Source of the DNA: Fasciola hepatica
Taxonomy: Eukaryota; Platyhelminthes; Trematoda; Plagiorchiida; Fasciolidae
NCBI GenBank assembly: GCA_948099385.1
Contig: CANUEZ040000208.1
Location: 2,418,001-2,482,000 of the forward strand
DNA: 64,000 nucleotides
Direction: 5' to 3'
Shown: positions 1 to 62,925 of the stretch, piece after piece
How the letters are laid out: every line of letters starts with the position of its first letter
How positions within the stretch are numbered: the first letter of the stretch is position 1
The notes under the pieces: model-generated
Told to the model about the DNA's origin: nothing
The model's database searches: none
Seen by the model: only the letters and a program-made list of their open reading frames with translations
Program-made: the position numbers and the translations under genes

Positions 1-2337
1 GCGAAGCTGGTTCTTACCATTCAAATTTAAAGCGAGTTTGGGAAGGGTGCTATATCATGTAGTGTAGATGTTGAACAAAGCGTTTAGAGCCATCCCGGAT
101 AGCCTTGTGTTGTTAAGTTGTTCGATTCACAATGGTTCACCGGTTGTTGGAGTGCCCGTGGGGGCTCGGTCGATGTGCACTGCTGATGAGTCGAGTCCCT
201 TAGAGGATGAAACAGCTGTACAATGCTTCCATGGATTTCAATGCTCAGTTGAGCGTTCAAGCTGCATGATCAATCATATTATACAAATCTAATCTAATCT
301 AATCTAATCTCGTACTACTAATCAATTGCATGCATAGTAAGGAAGCTGTGTAGGTTTTTCATTTGTGAATGCGTTGGTTGTACTTAGGCCCCTACAGAGA
401 AGTCATCCATCATAGGAGTGGATCGGTGTGCGCGAAGCTGGTTCTTACCATTCAAATTTGAAGCGAGTTTGGGAAGGGAACTATATCATGTAGTGTAGAT
501 GTTGAACAAAGCGTTGAGAGCCATCCCGGATAGCCTTGTGTTGTTAAGTTGTTCGATTCACAATGGTTCACCGGTTGTTGGAGTGCCCGTGGGGGCTCGG
601 TCGATGTGCACTGCTGATGAGTCGAGTCCCTTAGAGGATGAAACAGCTGTACAGTGCTTCCATCCATTTCAATGCTCAGTTGAGCGTTCAAGCTGCATGA
701 TCAATCATATTAAACAAATCTAATCCAATCTGATCTAATCTCGTACTACTAATCAATTGCATGCATAGTAAGGAAGCTATGTAGGTTTTTCATTTGGGAA
801 TGCGTTGGTTGTACTTAGGCCCCTACAGAGAAGTCATCCATCATAGGAGTCGATCGGTGTGCGCGAAGCTGGTTCTTACCATTCAAATTTGAAGCGAGTT
901 TGGGAACGGTGCTATATCATGTAGTGTAGATGTTGAACAAAGCGTTGAGAGCCATCCCGGATAGCCTTGTGTTGTTAAGTTGTTCGATTCACAATGGTTC
1001 ACCGGTTGTTGGAGTGCCCGTGGGGGCTCGGTCGATGTGCACTGCTGATGAGTCGAGTCCCTTAGAGGATGAAACAGCTGTACAGTGCTTCCATCCATTT
1101 CAATGCTCAGTTGAGCGTTCAAGCTGCATGATCAATCATATTAAACAAATCTAATCCAATCTGATCTAATCTCGTACTACTAATCAATTGCATGCATAGT
1201 AAGGAAGCTGTGTAGGTTGTTCATTTGTGAATGCGTTGGTTGTACTTAGGCCCCTACAGAGAAGTCATCCATCATAGGAGTCGATCGGTGTGCGCGAAGC
1301 TGGTTCTTACCATTCAAATTTAAAGCGAGTTTGGGAACGGTGCTATATCATGTAGTGTAGATGTTGAACAAAGCGTTGATAGACAGCCCGGATAGCCTTG
1401 TGTTGTTAAGTTGTTCGATTCACAATGGTTCACCGGTTGTTGGAGTGCCCGTGGGGGCTCGGTCGATGTGCACTGCTGATGAGTCGAGTCCCTTAGAGGA
1501 TGAAACAGCTGTACAGTGCTTCCATGGATTTCAATGCTCAGTTGAGCGTTCAAGCTGCATGATCAATCATATTATACAAATCTAATCTAATCTAATCTAA
1601 TCTCGTACTACTAATCAATTGCATGCATAGTAAGGAAGCTGTGTAGGTTTTTCATTTGTGAATGCGTTGGTTGTACTTAGGCCCCTACAGAGAAGTCATC
1701 CATCATAGGAGTCGATCGGTGTGCGCGAAGCTGGTTCTTACCATTCAAATTTAAAGCGAGTTTGGGAAGGGTGCTATATCATGTAGTGTAGATGTTGAAC
1801 AAAGCGTTTAGAGCCATCCCGGATAGCCTTGTGTTGTTAAGTTGTTCGATTCACAATGGTTCACCGGTTGTTGGAGTGCCCGTGGGGGCTCGGTCGATGT
1901 GCACTGCTGATGAGTCGAGTCCCTTAGAGGATGAAACAGCTGTACAGTGCTTCCATGGATTTCAATGCTCAGTTGAGCGTTCAAGCTGCATGATCAATCA
2001 TATTATACAAATCTAATCTAATCTGATCTAATCTCGTACTACTAATCAATTGCATGCATAGTAAGGAAGCTGTGTAGGTTGTTCATTTGTGAATGCGTTG
2101 GTTGTACTTAGGCCCCTACAGAGAAGTCATCCATCATAGGAGTCGATCGGTGTGCGCGAAGCTGGTTCTTACCATTCAAATTTAAAGCGAGTTTGGGAAG
2201 GGAACTATATCATGTAGTGTAGATGTTGAACAAAGCGTTGATAGACAGCCCGGATAAGCTTGTGTTGTTAAGTCGTTCGATTCACAGTGGTTCACCGGTT
2301 GTTGGAGTGCCCGTGGGGGCTCGGTCGATGTGCACTG

Positions 2338-2338
2338 T
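2338..2338 (+). other. Ribozyme lesion C3 to U
   Basis: The core reads TTGATGA in the monomer anchored at 2223, replacing the conserved C3. Confidence 0.85.
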
Positions 2339-4915
2339 TGATGAGTCGAGTCCCTTAGAGGATGAAACAGCTGTACAGTGCTTCCATGGATTTCAATGCT
2401 CAGTTGAGCGTTCAAGCTGCATGATCAATCATATTATACAAATCTAATCTAATCTGATCTAATCTCGTACTACTAATCAATTGCATGCATAGTAAGGAAG
2501 CTGTGTAGGTTGTTCATTTGTGAATGCGTTGGTTGTACTTAGGCCCCTACAGAGAAGTCATCCATCATAGGAGTGGATCGGTGTGCGCGAAGCTGGTTCT
2601 TACCATTCAAATTTAAAGCGAGTTTGGGAAGGGAACTATATCATGTAGTGTAGATGTTGAACAAAGCGTTGATAGACAGCCCGGATAAGCTTGTGTTGTT
2701 AAGTCGTTCGATTCACAATGGTTCACCGGTTGTTGGAGTGCCCATGGGGGCTCGGTCGATGTGCACTGCTGATGAGTCGAGTCCCTTAGAGGATGAAACA
2801 GCTGTACAGTGCTTCCATCCATTTCAATGCTCAGTTGAGCGTTCAAGCTGCATTATCAATCATATTATACAAATCTAATCTAATCTGATATAATCTCGTA
2901 CTGCTAATCAATTGCATGCATAGTAAGGAAGCTGTGTAGGTTGTTCATTTGGGAATGCGTTGGTTGTACTTAGGCCCCTACAGAGAAGTCATCCATCATA
3001 GGAGTCGATCGGTGTGCGCGAAGCTGGTTCTTACCATTCAAATTTAAAGCGAGTTTGGGAAGGGTGCTATATCATGTAGTGTGGATGTTGAACAAAGCGT
3101 TGAGAGCCATCCCGGATAGCCTTGTGTTGTTAAGTTGTTCGATTCACAATGGTTCACCGGTTGTTGGAGTGCCCGTGGGGGCTCGGTCGATGTGCACTGC
3201 TGATGAGTCGAGTCCCTTAGAGGATGAAACAGCTGTACAGTGCTTCCATCCATTTCAATGCTCAGTTGAGCGTTCAAGCTGCATGATCAATCATATTATA
3301 CAAATCTAATCTAATCTAATCTAATCTCGTACTACTAATCAATTGCATGCATAGTAAGGAAGCTGTGTAGGTTGTTCATTTGTGAATGCGTTGGTTGTAC
3401 TTAGGCCCCTACAGAGAAGTCATCCATCATAGGAGTGGATCGGTGTGCGCGAAGCTGGTTCTTACCATTCAAATTTAAAGCGAGTTTGGGAAGGGTACTA
3501 TATCATGTGGTGTAGATGTTGAACAAAGCGTTGAGAGCCATACCGGATAGCCTTGTGTTGTTAAGTTATTCGATTCACAATGGTTCACCGGTTGTTGGAG
3601 TGCCCGTGGGGGCTCGGTCGATGTGCACTGCTGATGAGTCGAGTCCCTTAGAGGAGGAAACAGCTGTACAGTGCTTCCATGGATTTCAATGCTCAGTTGA
3701 GCGTTCAAGCTGCATGAGCATTCATATTAAACAAATCTAATCCAATCTGATCTGATCTAATCTCGTACTACTAATCAATTGCATGCATAGTAAGGAAGCT
3801 GTGTAGGTTGTTCATTTGTGAATGCGTTGGTTGTACTTAGGCCCCTACAGAGAAGTCATCCATCATAGGAGTCGATCGGTGTGCGCGAAGCTGGTTCTTA
3901 CCATTCAATATTAAAGCGAGTTTGGTAAGGGTACTATATCATGTGGTGTAGATGTTGAACAAAGCGTTGAGAGTCATACCGGATAGCCTTGTGTTGTTAA
4001 GTTATTCGATTCACAATGGTTCACCGGTTGTTGGAGTGCCCGTGGGGGCTCGGTCGATGTGCACTGCTGATGAGTCGAGTCCCTTAGAGGATGAAACAGC
4101 TGTACAGTGCTTCCATCCATTTCAATGCTCAGTTGAGCGTTCAAGCTGCATGATCAATCATATTATACAAATCTAATCTAATCTGATCTAATCTCGTACT
4201 ACTAATCAATTGCATGCATAGTAAGGAAGCTGTGTAGGTTGTTCATTTGTGAATGCGTTGGTTGTACTTAGGCCCCTACAGAGAAGTCATCCATCATAGG
4301 AGTCGATCGGTGTGCGCGAAGCTGGTTCTTACCATTCAAATTTAAAGCGAGTTTGGGAAGGGAACTATATCATGTAGTGTAGATGTTGAACAAAGCGTTG
4401 ATAGACAGCCCGGATAAGCTTGTGTTGTTAAGTCGTTCGATTCACAATGGTTCACCGGTTGTTGGAGTGCCCGTGGGGGCTCGGTCGATGTGCACTGCTG
4501 ATGAGTCGAGTCCCTTAGAGGATGAAACAGCTGTACAGTGCTTCCATGGATTTCAATGCTCAGTTGAGCGTTCAAGCTGCATGATCAATCATATTATACA
4601 AATCTAATCTAATCTGATCTAATCTCGTACTACTAATCAATTGCATGCATAGTAAGGAAGCTGTGTAGGTTGTTCATTTGTGAATGCGTTGGTTGTACTT
4701 AGGCCCCTACAGAGAAGTCATCCATCATAGGAGTCGATCGGTGTGCGCGAAGCTGGTTCTTACCATTCAAATTTAAAGCGAGTTTGGGAAGGGAACTATA
4801 TCATGTAGTGTAGATGTTGAACAAAGCGTTGATAGACAGCCCGGATGAGCTTGTGTTGTTAAGTCGTTCGATTCACAATGGTTCACCGGTTGTTGGAGTG
4901 CCCATGGGGGCTCGG

Positions 4916-4981
4916 TCGATGTGCACTGCTGATGAGTCGAGTCCCTTAGAGGACGAAACAGCTGTACAGTGCTTCCATCCA
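4916..4981 (+). ncRNA. Hammerhead ribozyme, intact core (type I)
   Basis: All core bases are canonical: CTGATGA at 4929-4935, helix II 4936-4954 closed by G-C, GAA 4955-4957, helix III ACAGCTGT 4958-4965, cleavage after A4966, helix I return 4967-4972. The outer helix uses CATCCA. This is the leftmost copy with GGAC, and it is followed 431 nt later by another, so a monomer could be excised here. Confidence 0.92.
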
Positions 4982-5346
4982 TTTCAATGCTCAGTTGAGC
5001 GTTCAAGCTGCATGATCAATCATATTATACAAATCTAATCTAATCTGATCTAATCTCGTACTACTAATCAATTGCATGCATAGTAAGGAAGCTGTGTAGG
5101 TTGTTCATTTGTGAATGCGTTGGTTGTACTTAGGCCCCTACAGAGAAGTCATCCATCATAGGAGTCGATCGGTGTGCGCGAAGCTGGTTCTTACCATTCA
5201 AATTTAAAGCGAGTTTGGGAAGGGTGCTATATCATGTAGTGTGGATGTTGAACAAAGCGTTGAGAGCCATCCCGGATAGCCTTGTGTTGTTAAGTTGTTC
5301 GATTCACAATGGTTCACCGGTTGTTGGAGTGCCCGTGGGGGCTCGG

Positions 5347-5412
5347 TCGATGTGCACTGCTGATGAGTCGAGTCCCTTAGAGGACGAAACAGCTGTACAG
5401 TGCTTCCATCCA
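5347..5412 (+). ncRNA. Hammerhead ribozyme, intact core
   Basis: Predicted cleavage after A5397; outer helix I strand CATCCA. The next intact site downstream is eleven monomers away. Confidence 0.9.
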
Positions 5413-8400
5413 TTTCAATGCTCAGTTGAGCGTTCAAGCTGCATGATCAATCATATTATACAAATCTAATCTAATCTAATCTAATCTCGTACTACTAATC
5501 AATTGCATGCATAGTAAGGAAGCTGTGTAGGTTGTTCATTTGTGAATGCGTTGGTTGTACTTAGGCCCCTACAGAGAAGTCATCCATCATAGGAGTCGAT
5601 CGGTGTGCGCGAAGCTGGTTCTTACCATTCAAATTTAAAGCGAGTTTGGGAAGGGTACTATATCATGTGGTGTAGATGTTGAACAAAGCGTTGAGAGCCA
5701 TACCGGATAGCCTTGTGTTGTTAAGTTATTCGATTCACAATGGTTCACCGGTTGTTGGAGTGCCCGTGGGGGCTCGGTCGATGTGCACTGCTGATGAGTC
5801 GAGTCCCTTAGAGGATGAAACAGCTGTACAGTGCTTCCATCCATTTCAATGCTCAGTTGAGCGTTCAAGCTGCATGATCAATCATATTATACAAATCTAA
5901 TCTAATCTGATCTAATCTCGTACTACTAATCAATTGCATGCATAGTAAGGAAGCTGTGTAGGTTGTTCATTTGTGAATGCGTTGGTTGTACTTAGGCCCC
6001 TACAGAGAAGTCATCCATCATAGGAGTGGATCGGTGTGCGCGAAGCTGGTTCTTACCATTCAAATTTAAAGTGAGTTCGGGAAGGGAACTATATCATGTA
6101 GTGTAGATGTTGAACAAAGCGTTGATAGACAGCCCGGATAAGCTTGTGTTGTTAAGTCGTTCGATTCACAATGGTTCACCGGTTGTTGGAGTGCCCATGG
6201 GGGCTCGGTCGATGTGCACTGCTGATGAGTCGAGTCCCTTAGAGGATGAAACAGCTGTACAGTGCTTCCATCCATTTCAATGCTCAGTTGAGCGTTCAAG
6301 CTGCATGATCAATCATATTATACAAATCTAATCTAATCTGATCTAATCTCGTACTACTAATCAATTGCATGCATAGTAAGGAAGCTGTGTAGGTTGTTCA
6401 TTTGTGAATGCGTTGGTTGTACTTAGGCCCCTACAGAGAAGTCATCCATCATAGGAGTCGATCGGTGTGCGCGAAGCTGGTTCCTACCATTCAAATTTAA
6501 AGCGAGTTTGGGAAGGGAACTATATCATGTAGTGTAGATGTTGAACAAAGCGTTGATAGACAGCCCGGATAAGCTTGTGTTGTTAAGTCGTTCGATTCAC
6601 AATGGTTCACCGGTTGTTCGAGTGCCCGTGTGGGCTCGGTCGATGTGCACTGCTGATGAGTCGAGTCCCTTAGAGGATGAAACAGCTGTACAGTGCTTCC
6701 ATGGATTTCAATGCTCAGTTGAGCGTTCAAGCCGCATGATCAATCATATTATACAAATCTAATCTAATCTGATCTAATCTCGTACTACTAATCAATTGCA
6801 TGCATAGTAAGGAAGCTGTGTAGGTTGTTCATTTGTGAATGCGTTGGTTGTACTTAGGCCCCTACAGAGAAGTCATCCATCATAGGAGTCGATCGGTGTG
6901 CGCGAAGCTGGTTCTTACCATTCAAATTTAAAGCGAGTTTGGGAACGGTGCTATATCATGTAGTGTAGATGTTGAACAAAGCGTTGAGAGCCATCCCGGA
7001 TAGCCTTGTGTTGTTAAGTTGTTCGATTCACAATGGTTCACCGGTTGTTGGAGTGCCCGTGGGGGCTCGGTCGATGTGCACTGCTGATGAGTCGAGTCCC
7101 TTAGAGGATGAAACAGCTGTACAGTGCTTCCATCCATTTCAATGCTCAGTTGAGCGTTCAAGCTGCATGATCAATCATATTATACAAATCTAATCTAATC
7201 TAATCTAATCTCGTACTACTAATCAATTGCATGCATAGTAAGGAAGCTGTGTAGGTTTTTCATTTGGGAATGCGTTGGTTGTACTTAGGCCCCTACAGAG
7301 AAGTCATCCATCATAGGAGTCGATCGGTGTGCGCGAAGCTGGTTCTTACCATTCAAATTTAAAGCGAGTTTGGGAAGGGTACTATATCATGTGGTGTAGA
7401 TGTTGAACAAAGCGTTGAGAGCCATACCGGATAGCCTTGTGTTGTTAAGTTATTCGATTCACAATGGTTCACCGGTTGTTGGAGTGCCCGTGGGGGCTCG
7501 GTCGATGTGCACTGCTGATGAGTCGAGTCCCTTAGAGGATGAAACAGCTGTACAGTGCTTCCATGGATTTCAATGCTCAGTTGAGCGTTCAAGCTGCATG
7601 ACCAATCATATTATACAAATCTAATCTAATCTGATCTTATCTCGTACTACTAATCAATTGCATGCATAGTAAGGAAGCTGTGTAGGTTTTTCATTTGTGA
7701 ATGCGTTGGTTGTACTTAGGCCCCTACAGAGAAGTCATCCATCATAGGAGTCGATCGGTGTGCGCGAAGCTGGTTCTTACCATTCAAATTTAAAGCGAGT
7801 TTGGGAAGGGTGCTATATCATGTAGTGTAGATGTTGAACAAAGCGTTGATAGCCATCCCGGATAGCCTTGTGTTGTTAAGTTGTTCGATTCACAATGGTT
7901 CACCGGTTGTTGGAGTGCCCATGGGGGCTCGGTCGATGTGCACTGCTGATGAGTCGAGTCCCTTAGAGGATGAAACAGCTGTACAGTGCTTCCATGGATT
8001 TCAATGCTCAGTTGAGCGTTCAAGCTGCATGATCAATCATATTAAACAAATCTAATCCAATCTGATCTAATCTCGTACTACTAATCAATTGCATGCATAG
8101 TAAGGAAGCTGTGTAGGTTGTTCATTTGTGAATGCGTTGGTTGTACTTAGGCCCCTACAGAGAAGTCATCCATCATAGGAGTCGATCGGTGTGCGCGAAG
8201 CTGGTTCCTACCATTCAAATTTAAAGCGAGTTTGGGAAGGGAACTATATCATGTAGTGTAGATGTTGAACAAAGCGTTGATAGACAGCCCGGATAAGCTT
8301 GTGTTGTTAAGTCGTTCGATTCACAATGGTTCACCGGTTGTTGGAGTGCCCGTGTGGGCTCGGTCGATGTGCACTGCTGATGAGTCGAGTCCCTTAGAGG

Positions 8401-10087
8401 ATGAAACAGCTGTACAGTGCTTCCATGGATTTCAATGCTCAGTTGAGCGTTCAAGCCGCATGATCAATTATATTATACAAATCTAATCTAATCTGATCTA
8501 ATCTCGTACTACTAATCAATTGCATGCATAGTAAGGAAGCTGTGTAGGTTTTTCATTTGGGAATGCGTTGGTTGTACTTAGGCCCCTACAGAGAAGTCAT
8601 CCATCATAGGAGTCGATCGGTGTGCGCGAAGCTGGTTCTTACCATTCAAATTTAAAGCGAGTTTGGGAAGGGTGCTATATCATGTAGTGTAGATGTTGAA
8701 CAAAGCGTTGAGAGCCATCCCGGATAGCCTTGTGTTGTTAAGTTGTTCGATTCACAATGGTTCACCGGTTGTTGGAGTGCCCGTGGGGGCTCGGTCGATG
8801 TGCACTGCTGATGAGTCGAGTCCCTTAGAGGATGAAACAGCTGTACAGTGCTTCCATGGATTTCAATGCTCAGTTGAGCGTTCAAGCTGCATGATCAATC
8901 ATATTAAACAAATCTAATCCAATCTGATCTAATCTCGTACTACTAATCAATTGCATGCATAGTAAGGAAGCTGTGTAGGTTGTTCATTTGTGAATGCGTT
9001 GGTTGTACTTAGGCCCCTACAGAGAAGTCATCCATCATAGGAGTCGATCGGTGTGCGCGAAGCTGGTTCTTACCATTCAAATTTGAAGCGAGTTTGGGAA
9101 GGGTGCTATATCATGTAGTGTAGATGTTGAACAAAGCGTTGATATCCATCCCGGATAGCCTTGTGTTGTTAAGTTGTTCGATTCACAATGGTTCACCGGT
9201 TGTTGGAGTGCCCGTGGGGGCTCGGTCGATGTGCACTGCTGATGAGTCGAGTCCCTTAGAGGATGAAACAGCTGTACAGTGCTTCCATGGATTTCAATGC
9301 TCAGTTGAGCGTTCAAGCTGCATGATCAATCATATTATACAAATCTAATCTAATCTGATCTAATCTCGTACTACTAATCAATTGCATGCATAGTAAGGAA
9401 GCTGTGTAGGTTGTTCATTTGTGAATGCGTTGGTTGTACTTAGGCCCCTACAGAGAAGTCATCCATCATAGGAGTCGATCGGTGTGCGCGAAGCTGGTTC
9501 TTACCATTCAAATTTAAAGCGAGTTTGGTAAGGGTACTATATCATGTGGTGTAGATGTTGAACAAAGCGTTGAGAGCCATCCCGGATAGCCTTGTGTTGT
9601 TAAGTTGTTCGATTCACAATGGTTCACCGAATGTTGGAGTGCCCGTGGGGGCTCGGTCGATGTGCACTGCTGATGAGTCGAGTCCCTTAGAGGATGAAAC
9701 AGCTGTACAGTGCTTCCATGGATTTCAATGCTCAGTTGAGCGTTCAAGCTGCATGATCAATCATATTATACAAATCTAATCTAATCTGATCTAATCTCGT
9801 ACTACTAATCAATTGCATGCATAGTAAGGAAGCTGTGTAGGTTGTTCATTTGTGAATGCGTTGGTTGTACTTAGGCCCCTACAGAGAAGTCATCCATCAT
9901 AGGAGTCGATCGGTGTGCGCGAAGCTGGTTCTTACCATTCAAATTTAAAGCGAGTTTGGGAAGGGAACTATATCATGTAGTGTAGATGTTGAACAAAGCG
10001 TTGAGAGCCATCCCGGATAGCCTTGTGTTGTTAAGTTGTTCGATTCACAATGGTTCACCGGTTGTTGGAGTGCCCGTGGGGGCTCGG

Positions 10088-10153
10088 TCGATGTGCACTG
10101 CTGATGAGTCGAGTCCCTTAGAGGACGAAACAGCTGTACAGTGCTTCCATGGA
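10088..10153 (+). ncRNA. Hammerhead ribozyme, intact core
   Basis: Predicted cleavage after A10138; outer strand CATGGA. It is isolated among wobble copies. Confidence 0.9.
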
Positions 10154-11813
10154 TTTCAATGCTCAGTTGAGCGTTCAAGCTGCATGATCAATCATGTTAT
10201 ACAAATCTAATCTAATCTGATCTAATCTCGTACTACTAATCAATTGCATGCATAGTAAGGAAGCTGTGTAGGTTGTTCATTTGTGAATGCGTTGGTTGTA
10301 CTTAGGCCCCTACAGAGAAGTCATCCATCATAGGAGTCGATCGGTGTGCGCGAAGCCGGTTCTTACCATTCAAATTTAAAGCGAGTTTGGGAAGGGTACT
10401 ATATCATGTGGTGTAGATGTTGAACAAAGCGTTGAGAGCCATACCGGATAGCCTTGTGTTGTTAAGTTATTCGATTCACAATGGTTCACCGGTTGTTGGA
10501 GTGCCCGTGGGGGCTCGGTCGATGTGCACTGCTGATGAGTCGAGTCCCTTAGAGGATGAAACAGCTGTACAGTGCTTCCATGGATTTCAATGCTCAGTTG
10601 AGCGTTCAAGCTGCATGATCAATCATATTATACAAATCTAATCTAATCTAATCTAATCTCGTACTACTAATCAATTGCATGCATAGTAAGGAAGCTGTGT
10701 AGGTTTTTCATTTGGGAATGCGTTGGTTGTACTTAGGCCCCTACAGAGAAGTCATCCATCATAGGAGTCGATCGGTGTGCGCGAAGCTGGTTCTTACCAT
10801 TCAAATTTAAAGCGAGTTTGGGAAGGGTGCTATATCATGTAGTGTAGATGTTGAACAAAGCGTTGATAGACAGCCCGGATAAGCTTGTGTTGTTAAGTCG
10901 TTCGATTCACAATGGTTCACCGGTTGTTGGAGTGCCCATGGGGGCTCGGTCGATGTGCACTGCTGATGAGTCGAGTCCCTTAGAGGATGAAACAGCTGTA
11001 CAGTGCTTCCATCCAATTCAATGCTCAGTTGAGCGTTCAAGCTGCATGATCAATCATATTATACAAATCTAATCTAATCTGATCTAATCTCGTACTACTA
11101 ATCAATTGCATGCATAGTAAGGAAGCTGTGTAGGTTGTTCATTTGTGAATGCGTTGGTTGTACTTAGGCCCCTACAGAGAAGTCATCCATCATAGGAGTC
11201 GATCGGTGTGCGCGAAGCTGGTTCCTACCATTCAAATTTAAAGCGAGTTTGGGAAGGGAACTATATCATGTAGTGTAGATGTTGAACAAAGCGTTGATAG
11301 ACAGCCCGGATAAGCTTGTGTTGTTAAGTCGTTCGATTCACAATGGTTCACCGGTTGTTGGAGTGCCCATGGGGGCTCGGTCGATGTGCACTGCTGATGA
11401 GTCGAGTCCCTTAGAGGATGAAACAGCTGTACAGTGCTTCCATCCATTTCAATGCTCAGTTGAGCGTTCAAGCTGCATGATCAATCATATTATACAAATC
11501 TAATCTAATCTAATCTAATCTCGTACTACTAATCAATTGCATGCATAGTAAGGAAGCTGTGTAGGTTTTTCATTTGGGAATGCGTTGGTTGTACTTAGGC
11601 CCCTACAGAGAAGTCATCCATCATAGGAGTCGATCGGTGTGCGCGAAGCTGGTTCTTACCATTCAAATTTGAAGCGAGTTTGGGAAGGGTGCTATATATG
11701 ATGTAGTGTAGATGTTGAACAAAGCGTTGATAGCCATCCCGGATAGCCTTGTGTTGTTAAGTTGTTCGATTCACAATGGTTCACCGGTTGTTGGAGTGCC
11801 CGTGGGGGCTCGG

Positions 11814-11879
11814 TCGATGTGCACTGCTGATGAGTCGAGTCCCTTAGAGGACGAAACAGCTGTACAGTGCTTCCATGGA
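11814..11879 (+). ncRNA. Hammerhead ribozyme, intact core
   Basis: Predicted cleavage after A11864; CATGGA. It sits in a monomer with the TATATATGATG (+2) variant upstream of the A-box-like motif. Confidence 0.9.
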
Positions 11880-12244: not shown

Positions 12245-12310
12245 TCGATGTGCACTGCTGATGAGTCGAGTCCCTTAGAGGACGAAACAGCTGTACAGTG
12301 CTTCCATGGA
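12245..12310 (+). ncRNA. Hammerhead ribozyme, intact core
   Basis: Predicted cleavage after A12295; CATGGA. It is exactly 431 nt from the previous intact site. Confidence 0.9.
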
Positions 12311-22603: not shown

Positions 22604-22669
22604 TCGATGTGCACTGCTGATGAGTCGAGTCCCTTAGAGGACGAAACAGCTGTACAGTGCTTCCATCCA
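22604..22669 (+). ncRNA. Hammerhead ribozyme, intact core; first of six consecutive
   Basis: Predicted cleavage after A22654; CATCCA. It starts the longest run of consecutive intact ribozymes (22604 to 24824), which would release five 431-nt monomers. Confidence 0.92.
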
Positions 22670-23085
22670 TTTCAATGCTCAGTTGAGCGTTCAAGCTGCA
22701 TGATCAATCATATTATACAAATCTAATCTAATCTAATCTAATCTCGTACTACTAATCAATTGCATGCATAGTAAGGAAGCTGTGTAGGTTGTTCATTTGT
22801 GAATGCGTTGGTTGTACTTAGGCCCCTACAGAGAAGTCATCCATCATAGGAGTCGATCGGTGTGCGCGAAGCTGGTTCTTACCATTCAAATTTAAAGCGA
22901 GTTTGGGAAGGGTGCTATATCATGTAGTGTAGATGTTGAACAAAGCGTTGATAGCCATCCCGGATAGCCTTGTGTTGTTAAGTTGTTCGATTCACAATGG
23001 TTCACCGGTTGTTGGAGTGCCCGTGGGGGCTCGGTCGATGTGCACTGCTGATGAGTCGAGTCCCTTAGAGGACGAAACAGCTGTA
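22655..23085 (+). ncRNA. Reference monomer: predicted 431-nt self-excised RNA between two intact hammerheads
   Basis: This stretch runs from the base after one predicted cleavage site (A22654) to the next (A23085), and both flanking ribozymes have intact cores. A transcript should release it as a linear RNA starting CAGUGC with a 5'-hydroxyl and ending GCUGUA with a 2',3'-cyclic phosphate, the ends hammerheads leave. Such ends are substrates for RtcB-type ligation, so a 431-nt circle is plausible; that is inference. Inside are the pentamer microsatellite, the A-box-like and B-box-like motifs, and the next ribozyme. Confidence 0.7.
22925..22993 (+). promoter_or_regulatory. Candidate internal Pol III promoter (A and B boxes), reference copy
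   Basis: TAGTGTAGATG at 22925-22935 fits the A-box consensus TRGYNNARNNG at every constrained position. GTTCGATTC at 22985-22993 fits the B-box consensus GWTCRANNC. The order is right, and 49 bases separate them, longer than in a tRNA gene but within reported SINE-like spacing. Both lie upstream of the ribozyme on the same strand, as expected for a Pol III unit that transcribes it. The pair recurs in most monomers. Exceptions include monomers with TAGAGTAGATG (for example anchors 35001, 36294 and 39311). Chance matches to such short motifs are possible. Confidence 0.5.
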
Positions 23086-23100
23086 CAGTGCTTCCATGGA
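23035..23100 (+). ncRNA. Hammerhead ribozyme, intact core
   Basis: Second of the run. CTGATGA is at 23048-23054; cleavage after A23085; CATGGA. Confidence 0.92.
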
Positions 23101-46753: not shown

Positions 46754-46754
46754 A
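46754..46754 (+). other. Ribozyme lesion U4 to A
   Basis: The core reads CAGATGA in the monomer anchored at 46638. Confidence 0.85.
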
Positions 46755-50272: not shown

Positions 50273-51911
50273 GTTCAAGCTGCATGATCAATCATATTAT
50301 ACAAATCTAATCTAATCTAATCTAATCTCGTACTACTAATCAATTGCATGCATAGTAAGGAAGCTGTGTAGGTTGTTCATTTGTGAATGCGTTGGTTGTA
50401 CTTAGGACCCTACAGAGAAGTCATCCATCATAGGAGTGGATCGGTGTGCGCGAAGCTGGTTCTTACCATTCAAATTTAAAGCGAGTTTGGGAAGGGTGCT
50501 ATATCATGTAGTGTAGATGTTGAACAAAGCGTTGAGAGCCATCCCGGATAGCCTTGTTTTGTTAAGTTGTTCGATTCACAATGGTTCACCGGTTGTTGGA
50601 GTGCCCGTGGGGGCTCGGTCGATGTGCACTGCTGATGAGTCGAGTCCCTTAGAGGATGAAACATCTGTACAGTGCTTCCATGGATTTCAATGCTCAGTTG
50701 AGCGTTCAAGCTGCATGATCAATCATATTATACAAATCTAATCTAATCTGATCTAATCTCGTACTACTAATCAATTGCATGCATAGTAAGGAAGCTGTGT
50801 AGGCTGTTCATTTGGGAATGCGTTGGTTGTACTTAGGCCCCTACAGAGAAGTCATCCATCATAGGAGTCGATCGGTGTGCGCGAAGCTGGTTCTTACCAT
50901 TCAAATTTAAAGCGAGTTTGGGAAGGGTACTATATCATGTAGAGTAGATGTTGAACAAAGCGTTGAGAGCCATCCCGGATAGCCTTGTTTTGTTAAGTTG
51001 TTCGATTCACAATGGTTCACCGGTTGTTGGAGTGCCCGTGGGGGCTCGGTCGATGTGCACTGCTGATGAGTCGAGTCCCTTAGAGGATGAAACAGCTGTA
51101 CAGTGCTTCCATGGATTTCAATGCTCAGTTGAGCGTTCAAGCTGCATGATCAATCATATTATACAAATCTAATCTAATCTGATCTAATCTCGTACTACTA
51201 ATCAATTGCATGCATAGTAAGGAAGCTGTGTAGGTTGTTCATTTGTGAATGCGTTGGTTGTACTTAGGCCCCTACAGAGAAGTCATCCATCATAGGAGTG
51301 GATCGGTGTGCGCGAAGCTGGTTCCTACCATTCAAATTTAAAGCGAGTTTGGGAAGGGAACTATAGCATGTAGTGTAGATGTTGAACAAAGCGTTGATAG
51401 ACAGCCCGGATAGACTTGTGTTGTTAAGTTGTTCGATTCACAATGGTTCACCGGTTGTTGGAGTGCCCGTGGGGGCTCGGTCGATGTGCACTGCTGATGA
51501 GTCGAGTCCCTTAGAGGATGAAACAGCTGTACAGTGCTTCCATGGATTTCAATGCTCAATTGAGCGTTCAAGCTGCATGATCAATCATATTATACAAATC
51601 TAATCTAATCTAATCTAATCTCGTACTACTAATCAATTGCATGCATAGTAAGGAAGCTGTGTAGGTTGTTCATTTGTGAATGCGTTGGTTGTACTTAGGC
51701 CCCTACAGAGAAGTCATCCATCATAGGAGTCGATCGGTGTGCGCGAAGCTGGTTCCTACCATTCAAATTTAAAGCGAGTTTGGGAAGGGAACTATAGCAT
51801 GTAGTGTAGATGTTGAACAAAGCGTTGATAGACAGCCCGGATAGACTTGTGTTGTTAAGTTGTTCGATTCACAATGGTTCACCGGTTGTTGGAGTGCCCG
51901 TGGGGGCTCGG

Positions 51912-51977
51912 TCGATGTGCACTGCTGATGAGTCGAGTCCCTTAGAGGACGAAACAGCTGTACAGTGCTTCCATGGA
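51912..51977 (+). ncRNA. Hammerhead ribozyme, intact core
   Basis: Predicted cleavage after A51962; CATGGA; isolated. The monomer also has CTATAGCATG upstream and the palindrome GCTCAATTGAGC downstream. Confidence 0.9.
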
Positions 51978-54085
51978 TTTCAATGCTCAATTGAGCGTTC
52001 AAGCTGCATGATCAATCATATTATACAAATCTAATCTAATCTAATCTAATCTCGTACTACTAATCAATTGCATGCATAGTAAGGAAGCTGTGTAGGTTTT
52101 TCATTTGGGAATGCGTTGGTTGTACTTAGGCCCCTACAGAGAAGTCATCCATCATAGGAGTGGATCGGTGTGCGCGAAGCTGGTTCTTACCATTCAAATT
52201 TAAAGCGAGTTTGGGAAGGGAACTATATCATGTAGTGTAGATGTTGAACAAAGCGTTGATAGACAGCCCGGATAGCCTTGTGTTGTTAAGTTGTTCGATT
52301 CACAATGGTTCACCGGTTGTTGGAGTGCCCGTGGGGGCTCGGTCGATGTGCACTGCTGATGAGTCGAGTCCCTTAGAGGATGAAACAGCTGTACAGTGCT
52401 TCCATGGATTTCAATGCTCAGTTGAGCGTTCAAGCTGCATGATCAATCATATTATACAAATCTAATCTAATCTAATCTAATCTCGTACTACTAATCAATT
52501 GCATGCATAGTAAGGAAGCTGTGTATGTTGTTCATTTGTGAATGCATTGGTTGTACTTAGGCCCCTACAGAGAAGTCATCCATCATAGGAGTCGATCGGT
52601 GTGCGCGAAGCTGGTTCTTACCATTCAAATTTGAAGCGAGTTTGGGAAGGGTGCTATATCATGTAGTGTAGATGTTGAACAAAGCGTTGAGAGCCATCCC
52701 GGATAGCCTTGTGTTGTTAAGTTGTTCGATTCACAATGGTTCACCGGTTGTTGGAGTGCCCGTGGGGGCTCGGTCGATGTGCACTGCTGATGAGTCGAGT
52801 CCCTTAGAGGATGAAACAGCTGTACAGTGCTTCCATGGATTTCAATGCTCAGTTGAGCGTTCAAGCTGCATGACCAATCATATTATACAAATCTAATCTA
52901 ATCTGATCTAATCTCGTACTACTAATCAATTGCATGCATAGTAAGGAAGCTGTGTAGGTTGTTCATTTGTGAATGCGTTGGTTGTACTTAGGCCCCTACA
53001 GAGAAGTCATCCATCATAGGAGTGGATCGGTGTGCGCGAAGCTGGTTCTTACCATTCAAATTTGAAGCGAGTTTGGGAAGGGTGCTATATCATGTAGTGT
53101 AGATGTTGAACAAAGCGTTGATAGCCATCCCGGATAGCCTTGTGTTGTTAAGTTGTTCGATTCACAATGGTTCACCGGTTGTTGGAGTGCCCGTGGGGGC
53201 TCGGTCGATGTGCACTGCTGATGAGTCGAGTCCCTTAGAGGATGAAACAGCTGTACAGTGCTTCCATGGATTTCAATGCTCAGTTGAGCGTTCAAGCTGC
53301 ATGATCAATCATATTATACAAATCTAATCTAATCTGATCTAATCTCGAACTACTAATCAATTGCATGCATAGTAAGGAAGCTGTGTAGGTTGTTCATTTG
53401 TGAATGCGTTGGTTGTACTTAGGCCCCTACAGAGAAGTCATCCATCATAGGAGTCGATCGGTGTGCGCGAAGCTGGTTCTTACCATTCAAATTTGAAGCG
53501 AGTTTGGGAAGGGTACTATATCATGTAGTGTAGATGTTGAACAAAGCGTTGATAGCCATCCCGGATAGCCTTGTGTTGTTAAGTTGTTCGATTCACAAGG
53601 GTTCACCGGTTGTTCGAGTACCCGTGGGGGCTCGGCCGATGTGCACTGCTGATGAGTCGAGTCACTTAGAGGATGAAACAGCTGTACAGTGCTTCCATGG
53701 ATTTCAATGCTCAATTGAGCGTTCAAGCTGCATGATCAATCATATTATACAAATCTAATCTAATCTGATCTAATCTCGAACTACTAATCAATTGCATGCA
53801 TAGTAAGGAAGCTGTGTAGGTTGTTCATTTGTGAATGCGTTGGTTGTACTCAGGCCCCTACAGAGAAGTCATCCATCATAGGAGTCGATCGGTGTGCGCG
53901 AAGCTGGTTCTTACCATTCAAATTTGAAGCGAGTTTGGGAAGGGTGCTATATCATGTAGTGTAGATGTTGAACAAAGCGTTGAGAGCCATCCCGGATAGC
54001 CTTGTGTTGTTAAGTTGTTCGATTCACAATGGTTCACCGGTTGTTGGAGTGCCCGTGGGGGCTCGGTCGATGTGCACTGCTGATG

Positions 54086-54086
54086 C
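54086..54086 (+). other. Ribozyme lesion A9 to C
   Basis: The core reads CTGATGC in the monomer anchored at 53965; the same change occurs at 29088 in a copy that otherwise has GGACGAAAC. Confidence 0.8.
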
Positions 54087-57000
54087 GTCGAGTCCCTTAG
54101 AGGATGAAACAGCTGTACAGTGCTTCCATGGATTTCAATGCTCAGTTGAGCGTTCAAGCTGCATGATCAATCATATTATACAAATCTAATCTAATCTAAT
54201 CTGATCTAATCTCGTACTACTAATCAATTGCATGCATAGTAAGGAAGCTGTGTATGTTGTTCATTTGGGAATGCGTTGGTTGTACTTAGGCCCCTACAGA
54301 GAAGTCATCCATCATAGGAGTGGATCGGTGTGCGCGAAGCTGGTTCTTACCATTCAAATTTGAAGCGAGTTTGGGAAGAGTGCTATATATGATGTAGTGT
54401 AGATGTTGAACAAAGCGTTGATAGCCATCCCGGATAGCCTTGTGTTGTTAAGTTGTTCGATTCACAATGGTTCACCGGTTGTTGGAGTGCCCGTGGGGGC
54501 TCGGTCGATGTGCACTGCTGATGAGTCGAGTCCCTTAGAGGATGAAACAGCTGTAGAGTGCTTCCATTGATTTCAATGCTCAGTTGAGCGTTCAAGCTGC
54601 ATGATCAATCATATTATACAAATCTAATCTAATCTGAACTTATCTCGTACTACTAATCAATTGCATGCATAGTAAGGAAGCTGTGTAGGTTGTTCATTTG
54701 GGAATGCGTTGGTTGTACTTAGGCCCCTACAGAGAAGTCATCCATCATAGGAGTGGATCGGTGTGCGCGAAGCTGGTTCTTACCATTCAAATTTAAAGCG
54801 AGTTTGGGAAGGGTGCTATATCATGTAGTGTAGATGTTGAACAAAGCGTTGAGAGCCATCCCGGATAGCCTTGTGTTGTTAAGTTGTTCGATTCACAATG
54901 GTTCACCGGTTGTTGGAGTGCCCGTGGGGGCTCGGTCGATGTGCACTGCTGATGAGTCGAGTCCCTTAGAGGATGAAACAGCTGTACAGTGCTTCCATGG
55001 ATTTCAATGCTCAGTTGAGCGTTCAAGCTGCATGATCAATCATATTATACAAATCTAATCTAATCTAATCTAATCTCGTACTAGTAATCAATTGCATGCA
55101 TAGTAAGGAAGCTGTGTAGGTTGTTCATTTGTGAATGCGTTGGTTGTACTTAGGCCCCTACAGAGAAGTCATCCATCATAGGAGTCGATCGGTGTGCGCG
55201 AAGCTGGTTCTTACCATTCAAATTTGAAGCGAGTTTGGGAAGGGTGCTATATCATGTAGTGTAGATGTTGAACAAAGCGTTGAGAGCCATCCCGGATAGC
55301 CTTGTTTTGTTAAGTTGTTCGATTCACAATGGTTCACCGGTTGTTGGAGTGCCCGTGGGGGCTCGGTCGATGTGCACTGCTGATGAGTCGAGTCCCTTAG
55401 AGGATGAAACAGCTGTACAGTGCTTCCATGGATTTCAATGCTCAGTTGAGCGTTCAAGCTGCATGATCAATCATATTATACAAATCTAATCTAATCTGAA
55501 CTTATCTCGTATTACTAATCAATTGCATGCATAGTAAGGAAGCTGTGTAGGTTGTTCATTTGGGAATGCGTTGGTTGTACTTAGGACCCTACAGAGAAGT
55601 CATCCATCATAGGAGTGGATCGGTGTGCGCGAAGCTCGTTCTTACCATTCAAATTTGAAGCGAGTTTGGGAAGGGTGCTATATCATGTAGTGTAGATGTT
55701 GAACAAAGCGTTGAGAGCCATCCCGGATAGCCTTGTGTTGTTAAGTTGTTCGATTCACAATGGTTCACCGGTTGTTGGAGTGCCCGTGGGGGCTCGGTCG
55801 ATGTGCACTGCTGATGAGTCGAGTCCCTTAGAGGATGAAACAGCTGTACAGTGCTTCCATGGTTTTCAATGCTCAGTTGAGCGTTCAAACTGCATGATCA
55901 ATCATATTATACAAATCTAATCTAATCTGAACTTATCTCTAACTACTAATCAATTGCATGCATAGTAAGGAAGCTGTGTATGTTGTTCATTTGGGAATGC
56001 GTTGGTTGTACTTAGGCCCCTACAGAGAAGTCATCCATCATAGGAGTCGATCGGTGTGCGCAAAGCTGGTTCTTACCATTCAAATTTGAAGCGAGTTTGG
56101 GAAGGGTACTATATCATGTAGTGTAGATGTTGAACAAAGCGTTGAGAGCCATCCCGGATAGCCTTGTGTTGTTAAGTTGTTCGATTCACAATGGTTCACC
56201 GGTTGTTGGAGTGCCCGTGGGGGCTCGGTCGATGTGCACTGCTGATGAGTCGAGTCCCTTAGAGGATGAAACAGCTGTACAGTGCTTCCATGGTTTTCAA
56301 TGCTCAGTTGAGCGTTCAAACTGCATGATCAATCATATTATACAAATCTAATCTAATCTGAACTTATCTCTAACTACTAATCAATTGCATGCATAGTAAG
56401 GAAGCTGTGTATGTTGTTCATTTGGGAATGCGTTGGTTGTACTTAGGCCCCTACAGAGAAGTCATCCATCATAGGAGTGGATCGGTGTGCGCGAAGCTGG
56501 TTCTTACCATTCAAATTTGAAGCGAGTTTGGGAACGGTGCTATATCATGTAGTGTAGATGTTGAACAAAGCGTTGAGAGCCATCCCGGATAGCCTTGTGT
56601 TGTTAAGTTGTTCGATTCACAATGGTTCACCGGTTGTTGGAGTGCCCGTGGGGGCTCGGTCGATGTGCACTGCTGATGAGTCGAGTCCCTTAGAGGATGA
56701 AACAGCTGTAGGGTGCTTCCATGGATTTCAATGCTCAGTTGAGCGTTCAAGCTGCATGATCAATCATATTATACAAATCTAATCTAATCTGAACTTATCT
56801 CGTATTACTAATCAATTGCATGCATAGTAAGGAAGCTGTGTAGGTTGTTCATTTGGGAATGCGTTGGTTGTACTTAGGCCCCTATAGAGAAGTCATCCAT
56901 CATAGGAGTGGATCGGTGTGCGCGAAGCTGGTTCTTACCATTCAAATTTGAAGCGAGTTTGGGAAGGGTGCTATATCATGTAGTGTAGATGTTGAACAAA

Positions 57001-57952
57001 GCGTTGAGAGCCATCCCGGATAGCCTTGTGTTGTTAAGTTGTTCGATTCACAATGGTTCACCGGTTGTTGGAGTGCCCGTGGGGGCTCGGTCGATGTGCA
57101 CTGCTGATGAGTCGAGTCCCTTAGAGGATGAAACAGCTGTACAGTGCTTCCATGGTTTTCAATGCTCAGTTGAGCGTTCAAACTGCATGATCAATCATAT
57201 TATACAAATCTAATCTAATCTGATCTAATCTCGTACTACTAATCAATTGCATGCATAGTAAGGAAGCTGTGTAGGTTGTTCATTTGTGAATGCGTTGGTT
57301 GTACTTAGGCCCCTACAGAGAAGTCATCCATCATAGGAGTCGATCGGTGTGCGCGAAGCTGGTTCTTACCATTCAAATTTGAAGCGAGTTTGGGAAGGGT
57401 ACTATATCATGTAGTGTAGATGTTGAACAAAGCGTTGATAGCCATCCCGGATAGCCTTGTGTTGTTAAGTTGTTCGATTCACAATGGTTCACCGGTTGTT
57501 GGAGTGCCCGTGGGGGCTCGGTCGATGTGCACTGCTGATGAGTCGAGTCCCTTAGAGGATGAAACAGCTGTACAGTGCTTCCATCCATTTCAATGCTCAG
57601 TTGAGCGTTCAAGCTGCATGATCAATCATGTTATACAAATCTAATCTAATCTGAACTTATCTCGTACTACTAATCAATTGCATGCATAGTAAGGAAGCTG
57701 TGTAGGTTGTTCATTTGGGAATGCGTTGGTTGTACTTAGGCCCCTACAGAGAAGTCATCCATCATAGGAGTGGATCGGTGTGCGCGAAGCTGGTTCTTAC
57801 CATTCAAATTTAAAGCGAGTTTGGGAAGGGTGCTATATCATGTAGTGTAGATGTTGAACAAAGCGTTGAGAGCCATCCCGGATAGCCTTGTGTTGTTAAG
57901 TTGTTCGATTCACAATGGTTCACCGGTTGTTGGAGTGCCCGTGGGGGCTCGG

Positions 57953-58018
57953 TCGATGTGCACTGCTGATGAGTCGAGTCCCTTAGAGGACGAAACAGCT
58001 GTACAGTGCTTCCATTGA
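57953..58018 (+). ncRNA. Hammerhead ribozyme, intact core, weaker outer helix
   Basis: Predicted cleavage after A58003. The outer return strand is CATTGA, and the monomer is 5 bp shorter after the ribozyme. It is the last intact copy in the array. Confidence 0.88.
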
Positions 58019-59059
58019 TTTCAATGCTCATATGAGCGTTCAAGCTGCATGATCATTCATATTATACAAATCTGATCTGATCCAAACTCTTACTACTAAT
58101 CAATTGCATGCATAGTAAGGAAGCTGTGTAGGTTGTTCATTTGTGAATGCGTTGGTTGTACTTAGGCCCCTACAGAGAAGTCATCCATCATAGGAGTGGA
58201 TCGGTGTGCGCGAAGCTGGTTCTTACCATTCAAATTTGAAGCGAGTTTGGGAAGGGTACTATATCATGTAGTGTAGATGTTGAACAAAGCGTTGAGAGCC
58301 ATCCCGGATAGCCTTGTGTTGTTAAGTTGTTCGATTCACAATGGTTCACCGGTTGTTGGAGTGCCCGTGGGGGCTCGGTCGATGTGCACTGCTGATGAGT
58401 CGAGTCCCTTAGAGGATGAAACAGCTGTACAGTGCTTCCATCCATTTCAATGCTCAGTTGAGCGTTCAAGCCGCATGATCAATCATATTATACAAATCTA
58501 ATCTAATCTGATCTAATCTCGTACTACTAATCAATTGCATGCATAGTAAGGAAGCTGTGTAGGTTGTTCATTTGGGAATGCGTTGGTTGTACTTAGGCCC
58601 CTACAGAGAAGTCATCCATCATAGGAGTCGATCGGTGTGCGCGAAGCTGGTTCTTACCATTCAAATTTGAAGCGAGTTTGGGAAGGGTGCTATATCATGT
58701 AGTGTAGATGTTGAACAAAACGTTGAGAGCCATCCCGGATAGCCCGGTGTTGTTAAGTTGTTCGATTCACAATGGTTCACCGGTTGTTGGAGTGCCCGTG
58801 GGGGCTCGGTCGATGTGCACTGCTGATGAGTCGAGTCCCTTAGAGGATGAAACAGCTGTACAGTGCTTCCATGGATGTCAATGCTCAGTTGAGCGTTCAA
58901 GCTGCATGATCAATCATATTATACAAATCTAATCTAATCTAATCTAATCTCGTACTACTAATCAATTGCATGCATAGTAAGGAAGCTGTGTAGGTTGTTC
59001 ATTTGTGAATGCGTTGGTTGTACTTAGGCCCCTACAGAGAAGTCATCCATCATAGGAGT

Positions 59060-60450
59060 CGATCGGTGTGTGCGGAGCTGGCTGTTACCATTGAAATTTG
59101 AAGCCAGTTTGGGAGGGTGCTATATATGATGTAGTGTAGATGTTGAACAAAGCGTTGATAGCCATCCCGGATAGCCTTGTGTTGTTAAGTTTTTCAATTC
59201 ACAATGGTTCACCGGTTGTTGGAGTGCCCGTGGGGGCTCGGTCGATGTGCACTGCTGATGAGTCGAGTCCCTTAGAGGATGAAACAGCTGTACAGTGCTT
59301 CCATGGATTTCAATGCTCAGTTGAGCGTTCAAGCTGCATGATCAATCATATTATACAAATCTAATCTAATCTAATCTGATCTAATCTCGTACTACTAATC
59401 AATTGCATGCATAGTAAGGAAGCTGTGTAGGTTGTTCATTTGGGAATGCGTTGGTTGTACTTAGGCCCCTATAGAGAAGTCATCCATCATAGGAGTCGAT
59501 CGGTGTGCGCGAAGCTGGTTCTTACCATTCAAATTTGAAGCGATTTTGGGACGGGTGCTATATCATGTAGTGTAGATGTTGAACAAAGCGTTGAGAGCCA
59601 TCCCGGATAGCCTTGTGTTGTTAAGTTGTTCGATTCACAATGGTTCACCGGTTGTTGGAGTGCCCGTGGGGGCTCGGTCGATGTGCACTGCTGATGAGTC
59701 GAGTCCCGTAGAGGATGAAACAGCTGTACAGTGCTTCCATGGATTTCAATGCTCAGTTGAGCGTTCAAGCTGCATGATCAATCATATTATACAAATCTAA
59801 TCTAATCTGATCTAATCTCGTACTACTAATCAATTGCATGCATAGTAAGGAAGCTGTGTAGGTTGTTCATTTGTGAATGCGTTGGTTGTACTTAGGCCCC
59901 TACAGAGAAGTCATCCATCATAGGAGTGGATCGGTGTGCGCGAAGCTGGTTCTTACCATTCAAATTTGAAGCGAGTTTGGGAAGGGTGCTATATCATGTA
60001 GTGTAGATGTTGAACAAAGCGTTGAGAGCCATCCCGGATAGCCTTGTGTTGTTAAGTTGTTCGATTCACAATGGTTCACCGGTTGTTGGAGTGCCCGTGT
60101 GGGCTCGGTCGATGTGCACTGCTGATGAGTCGAGTCCCTTAGAGGATGAAACAGCTGTACAGTGCTTCCATCCATTTCAATGCTCAGTTGAGCGTTCAAG
60201 CTGCATGATCAATCATATTATACAAATCTAATCTAATCTGAACTTATCTCGTACTACTAATCAATTGCATGCATAGTAAGGAAGCTGTGTAGGTTGTTCA
60301 TTTGTGAATGCGTTGGTTGTACTAAGGCCCCTACAGAGAAGTCATCCATCATAGGAGTCGATCGGTGTGTGCGAAGCTGGCTGTTACCATTGAAATTTGA
60401 AGCCAGTTTGGGAGGGTGCTATATATGATGTAGTGTAGATGTTGAACAAA
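59060..60450 (+). repeat. Pair of diverged monomers near the right edge
   Basis: Monomers anchored at 59140 and 60439 share a block not seen elsewhere in the array: GTGTGTGCG, GCTGGCTGTTACC, ATTGAAATTTGAAGCCAG, and TATATATGATG. They are 1,299 bp apart, so the pair marks a local three-monomer duplication at the decaying edge. Confidence 0.7.
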
Positions 60451-62276
60451 GCGTTGAGAGCCATCCCGGATAGCCTTGTGTTGTTAGGTTGTTCGATTCA
60501 CAATGGTTCACCGGTTGTTGGAGTGCCCGTGGGGGCTCGGTCGATGTGCACTGCTGATGAGTCGAGTCCCTTAGAGGATGAAACAGCTGTACAGTGCTTC
60601 CATCCATTTCAATGCTCAGTTGAGCGTTCAAGCTGCATGATCAATCATATTATACAAATCTAATCTAATCTGATCTAATCTCGTACTACTAATCAATTGC
60701 ATGCATAGTAAGGAAGCTGTGTAGGTTGTTCATTTGTGAATGCGTTGGTTGTACTTAGGCCCCTATAGAGAATTCATCCATCATAGGAGTGGATCGGTGT
60801 GCGCGAAGCTGGTTCTTACCATTCAAATTTAAAGCGAGTTTGGGAAGGGTGCTATATCATGTAGTGTAGATGTTGAACAAAGCGTTGATAGCCATCCCGG
60901 ATAGCCTTGTGTTGTTAAGTTGTTCGATTCACAATGGTTCACCGGTTGTTGGAGTGCCCGTGGGGGCTCGGTCGATGTGCACTGCTGATGAGTCGAGTCC
61001 CTTAGAGGATGAAACAGCTGTACAGTGCTTCCATCCATTTCAATGCTCAGTTGAGCGTTCAAGCTGCATGATCAATCATATTATACAAATCTAATCTAAT
61101 CTAATCTAATCTCGTACTACTAATCAATTGCATGCATAGTAAGGAAGCTGTGTAGACTGTTCATTTGGGAATGCGTTGGTTGTACTTAGGCCCCTACAGA
61201 GAAGTCATCCATCATAGGAGTGGATCGGTGTGCGCGAAGCTGGTCCTTATCATTCAAACTTAAAGCGAGTTTGGGAAGGATGCTATATCATGTAGTGTAG
61301 ATGTTGAACAAAGCGTTGAGAGCCATCCCGGATAGCCTTGTGTTGTTAAGTTGTTCGATTCACAATGGTTCACCGGTTGTTGGAGTGCCCGTGGGGGCTC
61401 GGTCGATGTGCACTGCTGATGAGTCGAGTCCCTTAGAGGATGAAACAGCTGTACAGTGCTTCCATCCATTTCAATGCTCAGTTGAGCGTTCAAGCTGCAT
61501 GATCAATCATATTATACAAATCTAATCTAATCTAATCTAATCTCGTACTAGTAATCAATTGCATGCATAGTAAGGAAGCTGTGTAGGTTGTTCATTTGTG
61601 AATGCGTTGGTTGTACTTAGGCCCCTACAGAGAAGTCATCCATCATAGGAGTGGATCGGTGTGCGCAAAGCTGTTCCTTATCATTCAAATTTAAAGCGAG
61701 TTTGGGAAGAGTGCTATATCATGTAGTGTAGATGTTGAACAAAGCGTTGAGAGCCATCCCGGATAGCCTTGTGTTGTTAAGTTGTTCGATTCACAATGGT
61801 TTACCGGTTGTTGGAGTGCCCGTGGGGGCTCGGTCGATGTGCACTGCTGATGAGTCGAGTCCCTTAGAGGATGAAACAGCTGTACAGTGCTTCCATGGAT
61901 TTCAATGCTCAGTTGAGCGTTCAAGCTGCATGATCAATCATATTATACAAATCTAATCTAATCTGAACTTATCTCGTACTACTAATCAATTGCATGCATA
62001 GTAAGGAAGCTGTGTAGGTTGTTCATTTGGGAATGCGTTGGTTGTACTCAGGCCCTTACAGAGAAGTCATCCATCATAGGAGTGGATCGGTGTGCGCGAA
62101 GCTGGTTCTTACCATTCAAATTTGAAGCGAGTTTGGGAAGGGTACTATATCATGTAGTGAAGATGTTGAACAAAGCGTTGAGAGCCATCCCGGATAGCCT
62201 TGTGTTGTTAAGTTGTTCGATTCACAATGGTTCACCGGTTGTTGGAGTGCCCGTGGGGGCTCGGTCGATGTGCACT

Positions 62277-62280
62277 CCTA
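62277..62280 (+). other. Ribozyme lesions G2.1 to C and G5 to A
   Basis: In the penultimate monomer the helix I end and core read GCACTC CTAATGA, so both the pair next to the cleavage site and the conserved G5 are lost. Confidence 0.85.
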
Positions 62281-62734
62281 ATGAGTCGAGTCCCTTAGAG
62301 GATGAAACAGCTGTACAGTGCTTCCATGGATTTCAATGCTCAGTTGAGCGTTCAAGCTGCATGATCAATCATATTATACAAATCTAATCTAATCTGAACT
62401 TATCTCGTACTACTAATCAATTGCATGCATAGTAAGGAAGCTGTGTAGGTTGTTCATTTGTGAATGCGTTGGTTGTACTTAGGCCCCTACAGAGAAGTCA
62501 TCCATCATAGGAGTGGATCGGTGTGCGCGAAGATGGTTCTTACCATTCAAACTTGAAGCGAGTTTGGGAAGTTTGCTATATCATGTAATGTAGATGTTGA
62601 ACAAAGCGTTGAGAGCCATTTCGGATATACATGTTTTGTTAAGTTGTTCGATTCACAATGGTTCACCGGTTGTTGGAGTGCCCGTGGGGGCTCGGTCGAT
62701 GTGCACTGCTGATGAGTCGAGTCCCTTAGAGGAT

Positions 62735-62735
62735 A
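62735..62735 (+). other. Ribozyme lesion G12 to A (last monomer)
   Basis: The last monomer reads GGATAAAAC where others read GGATGAAAC, removing the catalytic base G12. Confidence 0.85.
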
Positions 62736-62925
62736 AAACAGCTGTACAGTGCTTCCATGGATTTCAATGCTCAGTTGAGCGTTCAAGCTGCATGATCAAT
62801 CATATTATACAAATATAATCTAATCTGAACCTATCTCGTATTACTAGAGAATAGCATGCACAAGAACGAAGCCGTGTAGTTTGTTCATTTGTGAATGTGT
62901 TGGTTGTACTTAGGCCCCTGCAGAG

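Follow-up and report, generated by a model that had tools for sequence, protein, structure and literature searches.

A 63-kb satellite array of Fasciola hepatica whose units bear a type I hammerhead-related motif

The array and the motif in its units

The window analysed here is a stretch of 64,000 nucleotides from the trematode Fasciola hepatica (contig CANUEZ040000208.1, positions 2,418,001 to 2,482,000), and nearly all of it is taken up by a satellite whose repeat unit carries a motif related to the type I hammerhead ribozyme. Tandem Repeats Finder (TRF) reports a single array at positions 1-62925 with a period of 431, 145.9 copies and 97% matches, in agreement with an earlier note on this DNA that described a 63-kb satellite of about 146 copies of a 431-bp unit. 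Cutting near the predicted cleavage site yielded 145 complete units, 119 of which are 431 bp long; their mean pairwise identity after alignment is 97%, and the GC content of the unit is 44%. The same note had the motif recur with one spacing throughout; the anchor-to-anchor distance is indeed 431 in 119 of 145 intervals, but it ranges from 426 to 439.

Copies of the motif were collected with a 50-nt template taken from the window (helix I, CTGATGA, stem II, GAA, ACAGCTGT, A17 and helix I again), with up to six substitutions and no indel allowed. The template matched 146 times on the plus strand of the whole window and not once on the minus strand. When pairs were counted over the 146 copies with G-U allowed, the cleavage base A17 and two possible stem III pairs were found in every copy, and three stem II pairs were possible in 145. 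The palindrome ACAGCTGT is present in 143 copies, the core (CUGANGA, GAA, A15.1-U16.1 and H17 in this order, with the open end at helix I) is intact in 140, and helix I has six pairs in 138. The full type I descriptor, which combines the core, all three stems and A17, is satisfied by 132 copies. Position 11.1 is C in 41 copies, U in 104 and G in one. The cleavage positions named in the earlier note, 22655 and 23086, fit the copies that start at 22611 and 23042 (Table 1).

The Rfam model Hammerhead_1 (RF00163) aligned end to end on a 171-nt stretch with 29.3 bits (E=1e-5). A scan of the whole window gave at least 83 matches at E<=1, of which 38 scored 29.3 bits (E=0.0038), one 25.7 and 44 24.5; the score class follows the base at 11.1, which is C in all 38 matches at 29.3 bits and U in all 44 at 24.5 bits. 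Since the commonest U form has 90 copies, 43 of them among the matches listed, the figure of 83 reflects a limit of the search and is not a count of ribozymes. A free type I descriptor (helix I with at least five pairs, stem II with at least two, stem III with at least one) picked the same 132 copies in the window as the full template descriptor, and it was matched by one of 20,000 dinucleotide-shuffled monomer rings. The loose pattern CTGATGA-N5..25-GAA was observed 140 times, against 6.1 expected in shuffles. The motif is a genuine hammerhead relative and not a product of chance, and the data support the description of the array as a satellite whose units each bear a type I hammerhead-related motif. 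A comparable ribozyme on the minus strand was rejected, with no template copy and no descriptor match there.

Several other features of the unit were noted. The two bases downstream of helix I (22667-22668 and equivalents) are GG in 91, CC in 52 and TG in two of 145 units; in four folded slices the outer part of stem I has four contiguous pairs with CC, and three pairs plus one set apart with GG. Some units contain a short AATCT microsatellite of 5-6 copies (22720-22744 and equivalent places; 41 TRF rows, 39 of them perfect). No tRNA genes were found in the window. A box-B-like string in the monomer, GTTCGATTC, considered by eye as a possible RNA polymerase III signal, was dropped, since a rough calculation by hand gives an expectation of about 0.2 occurrences per monomer. 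Sub-threshold matches to the long noncoding RNA families MESTIT1_3 and CLRN1-AS1 in a scan of 62000-64000 were taken as chance.

Table 1. Features of the array, of representative hammerhead copies and of the inverted neighbours
Feature	Position	Strand	Basis
431-bp satellite array, about 146 copies, mean pairwise identity 97%	1..62925	+	TRF; alignment of 145 complete units
Representative hammerhead copy, C11.1 form	22611..22660	+	Rfam Hammerhead_1, 29.3 bits, model 1-45 of 45; descriptor
Helix I arms, representative copy	22611-22616 and 22655-22660	+	
Core, representative copy	CTGATGA 22617-22623, GAA 22643-22645, A17 22654	+	
Stem II, representative copy	arms 22624-22626 / 22640-22642, 13-nt loop 22627-22639	+	
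Stem III with loop ACAGCTGT, representative copy	22646-22653	+	
Predicted cleavage A17/C1.1, representative copy	22654..22655	+	Hammerhead mechanism (inferred); Rfam alignment position; A17 in 146/146
Second representative copy, predicted cleavage 23085/23086	23042..23091	+	Rfam, 29.3 bits
Tandem duplication GAGTC GAGTC (5 nt), core G8-A9 and stem II 5' arm	22622..22631	+	Exact in 144/146 copies; lacking in two inverted relatives as aligned
Inverted diverged subfamily, period about 423	62926..64000	-	TRF; local alignment
Ruined hammerhead without GAGTC duplication; core CTCATGA and CAA (G5, G12 changed)	63248..63294	-	Sequence, alignment
Second, more decayed hammerhead remnant; 3' half AAACAGCTGTACAGTGC retained	63671..63717	-	Sequence, alignment

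The stem II duplication, the inverted relatives and growth of the array

The inverted subfamily is joined to the main array and is identical to its consensus at 824 of 1019 ungapped aligned positions. Both of its hammerhead remnants fall outside the six-substitution limit of the template, and the scan of 62000-64000 gave no hammerhead match at E<=10, neither for the two damaged plus-strand copies at the edge of the array nor for the inverted remnants. The stretch AAACAGCTGTACAGTGCTTCCAT is retained in the inverted subfamily despite the ruined hammerhead cores.

In the main array the stem II segment reads CTGAT GAGTC GAGTC CCTTAGAGGAY GAA and thus contains a tandem GAGTC duplication, which is absent from the earlier note. 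With the duplication, the canonical register provides a stem II of 3 bp with a 13-nt loop, a length within the natural range, since stem II of natural hammerheads commonly has only two pairs (PMC3088659). In a shifted register, GUCC pairs with GGAY; this gives four pairs and a 6-nt loop, with five extra nucleotides in the core. With a single GAGTC, stem II could have four pairs and a loop of 6 nt, and the simplest reading is therefore that the founder acquired the duplication ahead of the spread of the array, as the two decayed copies suggest. A duplication of this kind was not met in the portions seen of the literature on related hammerhead satellites, in which no search was aimed at such a duplication. 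When the duplication was removed in silico, stem II was predicted with a probability of 0.98-1.0 (C11.1 form; the segment had one end base not from the window). In this duplication-free form the core CTG pairs with the CAG of the stem III palindrome, and the active fold is not predicted either.

Blocks of several units are shared within the array. With at most three differences per unit, a run of eight units beginning at m14883 is matched at lag 8; further blocks lie in the stretch from m34288 to about m40000, at lag 3 (from m34288 and m37305), lag 4 (from m35581) and lags 7 and 10 (from m34288). Such blocks indicate growth by DNA exchange, and this is how the array looks to have grown. A single regular higher-order repeat across the whole array was rejected, as the lags are only local. 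Linkage of common variants (300 pairs, 25 sites) falls rapidly with distance: mean r2 drops from 0.41 at 1-10 bp to 0.19 at 11-30, 0.08 at 31-60, 0.04 at 61-100 and about 0.02 beyond. All four combinations occur in 233 of 283 variant pairs more than 10 bp apart. Common variants are thus nearly unlinked within the unit, and the units are fine mosaics. Short-tract gene conversion, template switching by reverse transcriptase or the mixing of reads during assembly could explain the mosaics.

Activity of the ribozyme and alternative readings

We judge it probable, though by no means assured, that the array is a satellite or a tandem non-LTR (long terminal repeat) retrozyme with a GAGTC duplication inherited from its founder, and that its ribozyme is probably slow and could be helped by dimers. 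The ancestor of each unit would be a type I hammerhead whose stem III had two pairs and the palindromic loop ACAGCTGT; the founder would have acquired the 5-nt duplication, after which the array spread. A single ribozyme is probably slow because the alternative register of stem II is more stable, and two units pairing through the palindromic stem III could aid cleavage, as in the axolotl, where a weak stem III goes with dimer-dependent cleavage (PMC7229834). Self-cleavage is plausible, probably at a low rate or by way of dimers. On paper, a multimeric transcript would be cut once per unit and a ligase would close the ring, as in animal hammerhead satellites, which would give the 431-nt linear or circular RNAs proposed in the earlier note; circularisation by RtcB has been described in vitro (PMC7229834).

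Against full activity stand a sub-cut-off Rfam score, a wrong stem II register that is the more stable one and the lack of a clear excess of conservation. The curated cut-off of Hammerhead_1 is 34 bits, and the 64 kb contain no hammerhead match at the gathering score, the best being 29.3 bits. The covariance-model search proposed in the earlier note has therefore given a divided answer: nothing at the gathering score, but at least 83 Hammerhead_1 matches at E<=1, at least 38 of them at 29.3 bits. Its claim of a type I hammerhead in every monomer holds for the motif, which is present in all 146 copies, but a core- or pair-breaking change is found in 14 of them; moreover, G-U replaces G-C at 10.1-11.1 in 104 copies. 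Energies predicted with helices I and III held in place put the shifted register ahead by 3.3 kcal/mol in 143 copies and by 3.2, 3.0 and 0.5 kcal/mol in the remaining three. In four window slices the probability of the canonical stem II is 0.07-0.09, compared with 0.75-0.92 for the shifted one, and that of stem III is 0.002-0.004. Neither tertiary contacts nor core pairs enter into these energies, which are therefore no proof of inactivity.

Variation within the array points the same way. Windows of 50 nt contain on average 21.6 variant types; the ribozyme, of the same length, contains 17. Of 431 such windows, 165 have 17 or fewer; variable sites are as few as in the ribozyme, or fewer, in 193 of 431 windows, and variant cells in 99 of 431. 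Rare alleles per site number 0.26 in the ribozyme, 0.30 in the core and stems and 0.32 elsewhere. Across the 146 copies, no two-sided change was observed at any of the 11 stem pairs. The circular monomer (-119.3 kcal/mol, 68% paired) is not more folded than its shuffles (z = -0.5, n=100), a value for which the literature seen offers no z-score for comparison. The window variant counts and rare-allele rates led us to reject the idea that the motif is under strong purifying selection in this array. There is no clear sign of stronger conservation in the ribozyme than in the rest of the unit, a statement about one array, whose reach does not extend to conservation between species.

The duplication may instead have inactivated the ribozyme of the founder, and the array may have spread by unequal exchange and gene conversion alone, with no part played by the ribozyme. 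We consider this unlikely, though well within reason. The 3.3 kcal/mol advantage of the shifted register, the lack of a clear excess of conservation, the ruined cores of the inverted relatives and the multi-unit blocks would all be in keeping with such a dead passenger. On the other side, 132 of 146 copies still satisfy the descriptor, although a young array would manage this without selection, and the canonical three-pair stem II is still possible, natural ribozymes making do with two pairs (PMC3088659). To a further idea we give little credence, namely that the ribozyme works in two registers, with stem II formed next to the core (active) or at a distance of 5 nt from it, so that the shift closes or opens the core. 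It would suit this idea that GA stands directly before the stem II arm in both registers and that these differ by the same 3.3 kcal/mol in nearly all copies, but neither an excess of conservation nor a two-sided pair change speaks for it, an insertion after A6 gave low activity (PMC3088659) and a plain duplication is simpler. If this were true, the satellite RNA would carry within itself a switch between the active core and an opened one.

That the resemblance arose by chance, or that the array is an assembly artefact, is hardly credible. The sub-threshold Rfam score could be cited for it, and 63 kb of units that are 97% identical are hard to assemble, so that both the number and the order of the copies may be off. 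However, one shuffled ring in 20,000 meets the descriptor, Hammerhead_1 matches over its full length at E=1e-5 and decayed relatives with the same layout adjoin the array; chance resemblance is nearly refuted.

Comparison with known hammerhead satellites

With its sub-cut-off Rfam score, the array belongs with the known animal type I hammerhead satellites and non-LTR retrozymes, to which it adds a structural twist. Its layout, 146 copies of 431 bp, is that of metazoan non-LTR retrozymes, the score being below threshold. The earlier note did not recognise the unit among known ribozyme satellites, but its novelty is smaller than this suggested, because type I hammerheads in tandem repeats of 150-450 bp have been described across most metazoan phyla (PMC7229834). 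No 431-bp hammerhead satellite was found in the open-licence literature searched. Exact-pattern scans of viral and prokaryote genome contigs gave no matches; these are not animal genomes, and the result has no bearing on novelty.

Like the metazoan non-LTR retrozymes, the array combines a type I hammerhead and a short stem III with tandem units of a few hundred base pairs and a GC content below 50% (PMC7229834). Unlike them, as far as the part of that source seen extends, it has a unit towards the upper limit of 150-450 bp, more copies (146) than the 62-mers given for the coral, and the GAGTC duplication. Newt and axolotl hammerheads resemble it in dimer-aided cleavage and in the weakness of stem III, which has a palindromic tetraloop in Amex1 and two pairs plus a tetraloop in Amex2, but their units are 330-350 bp long and a stem II duplication of this kind is not described for them in the same part of that source (PMC7229834). 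In pDo500 of Dolichopoda cave crickets, too, each satellite repeat, of roughly 500 bp, carries a hammerhead, for which single and double modes have been discussed (PMC2837043). In contrast to the present array, within which neither was seen, the part of that source seen describes the cricket hammerhead as more conserved than the rest of the repeat, with compensatory changes across species (PMC2837043).

The Sm-alpha and W-element satellites of Schistosoma likewise form arrays with minimal type I hammerheads and an extremely short stem III, W27.2 having a 403-bp unit in about 100 copies (PMC8490949). The likeness drawn here is one of description, and the part of the source seen describes no stem II duplication of this kind (PMC8490949). 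To the known hammerhead satellites the Fasciola array adds a very long, clean case, and its fixed duplication and decayed neighbours allow one to ask whether the spread of such arrays needs ribozyme activity.

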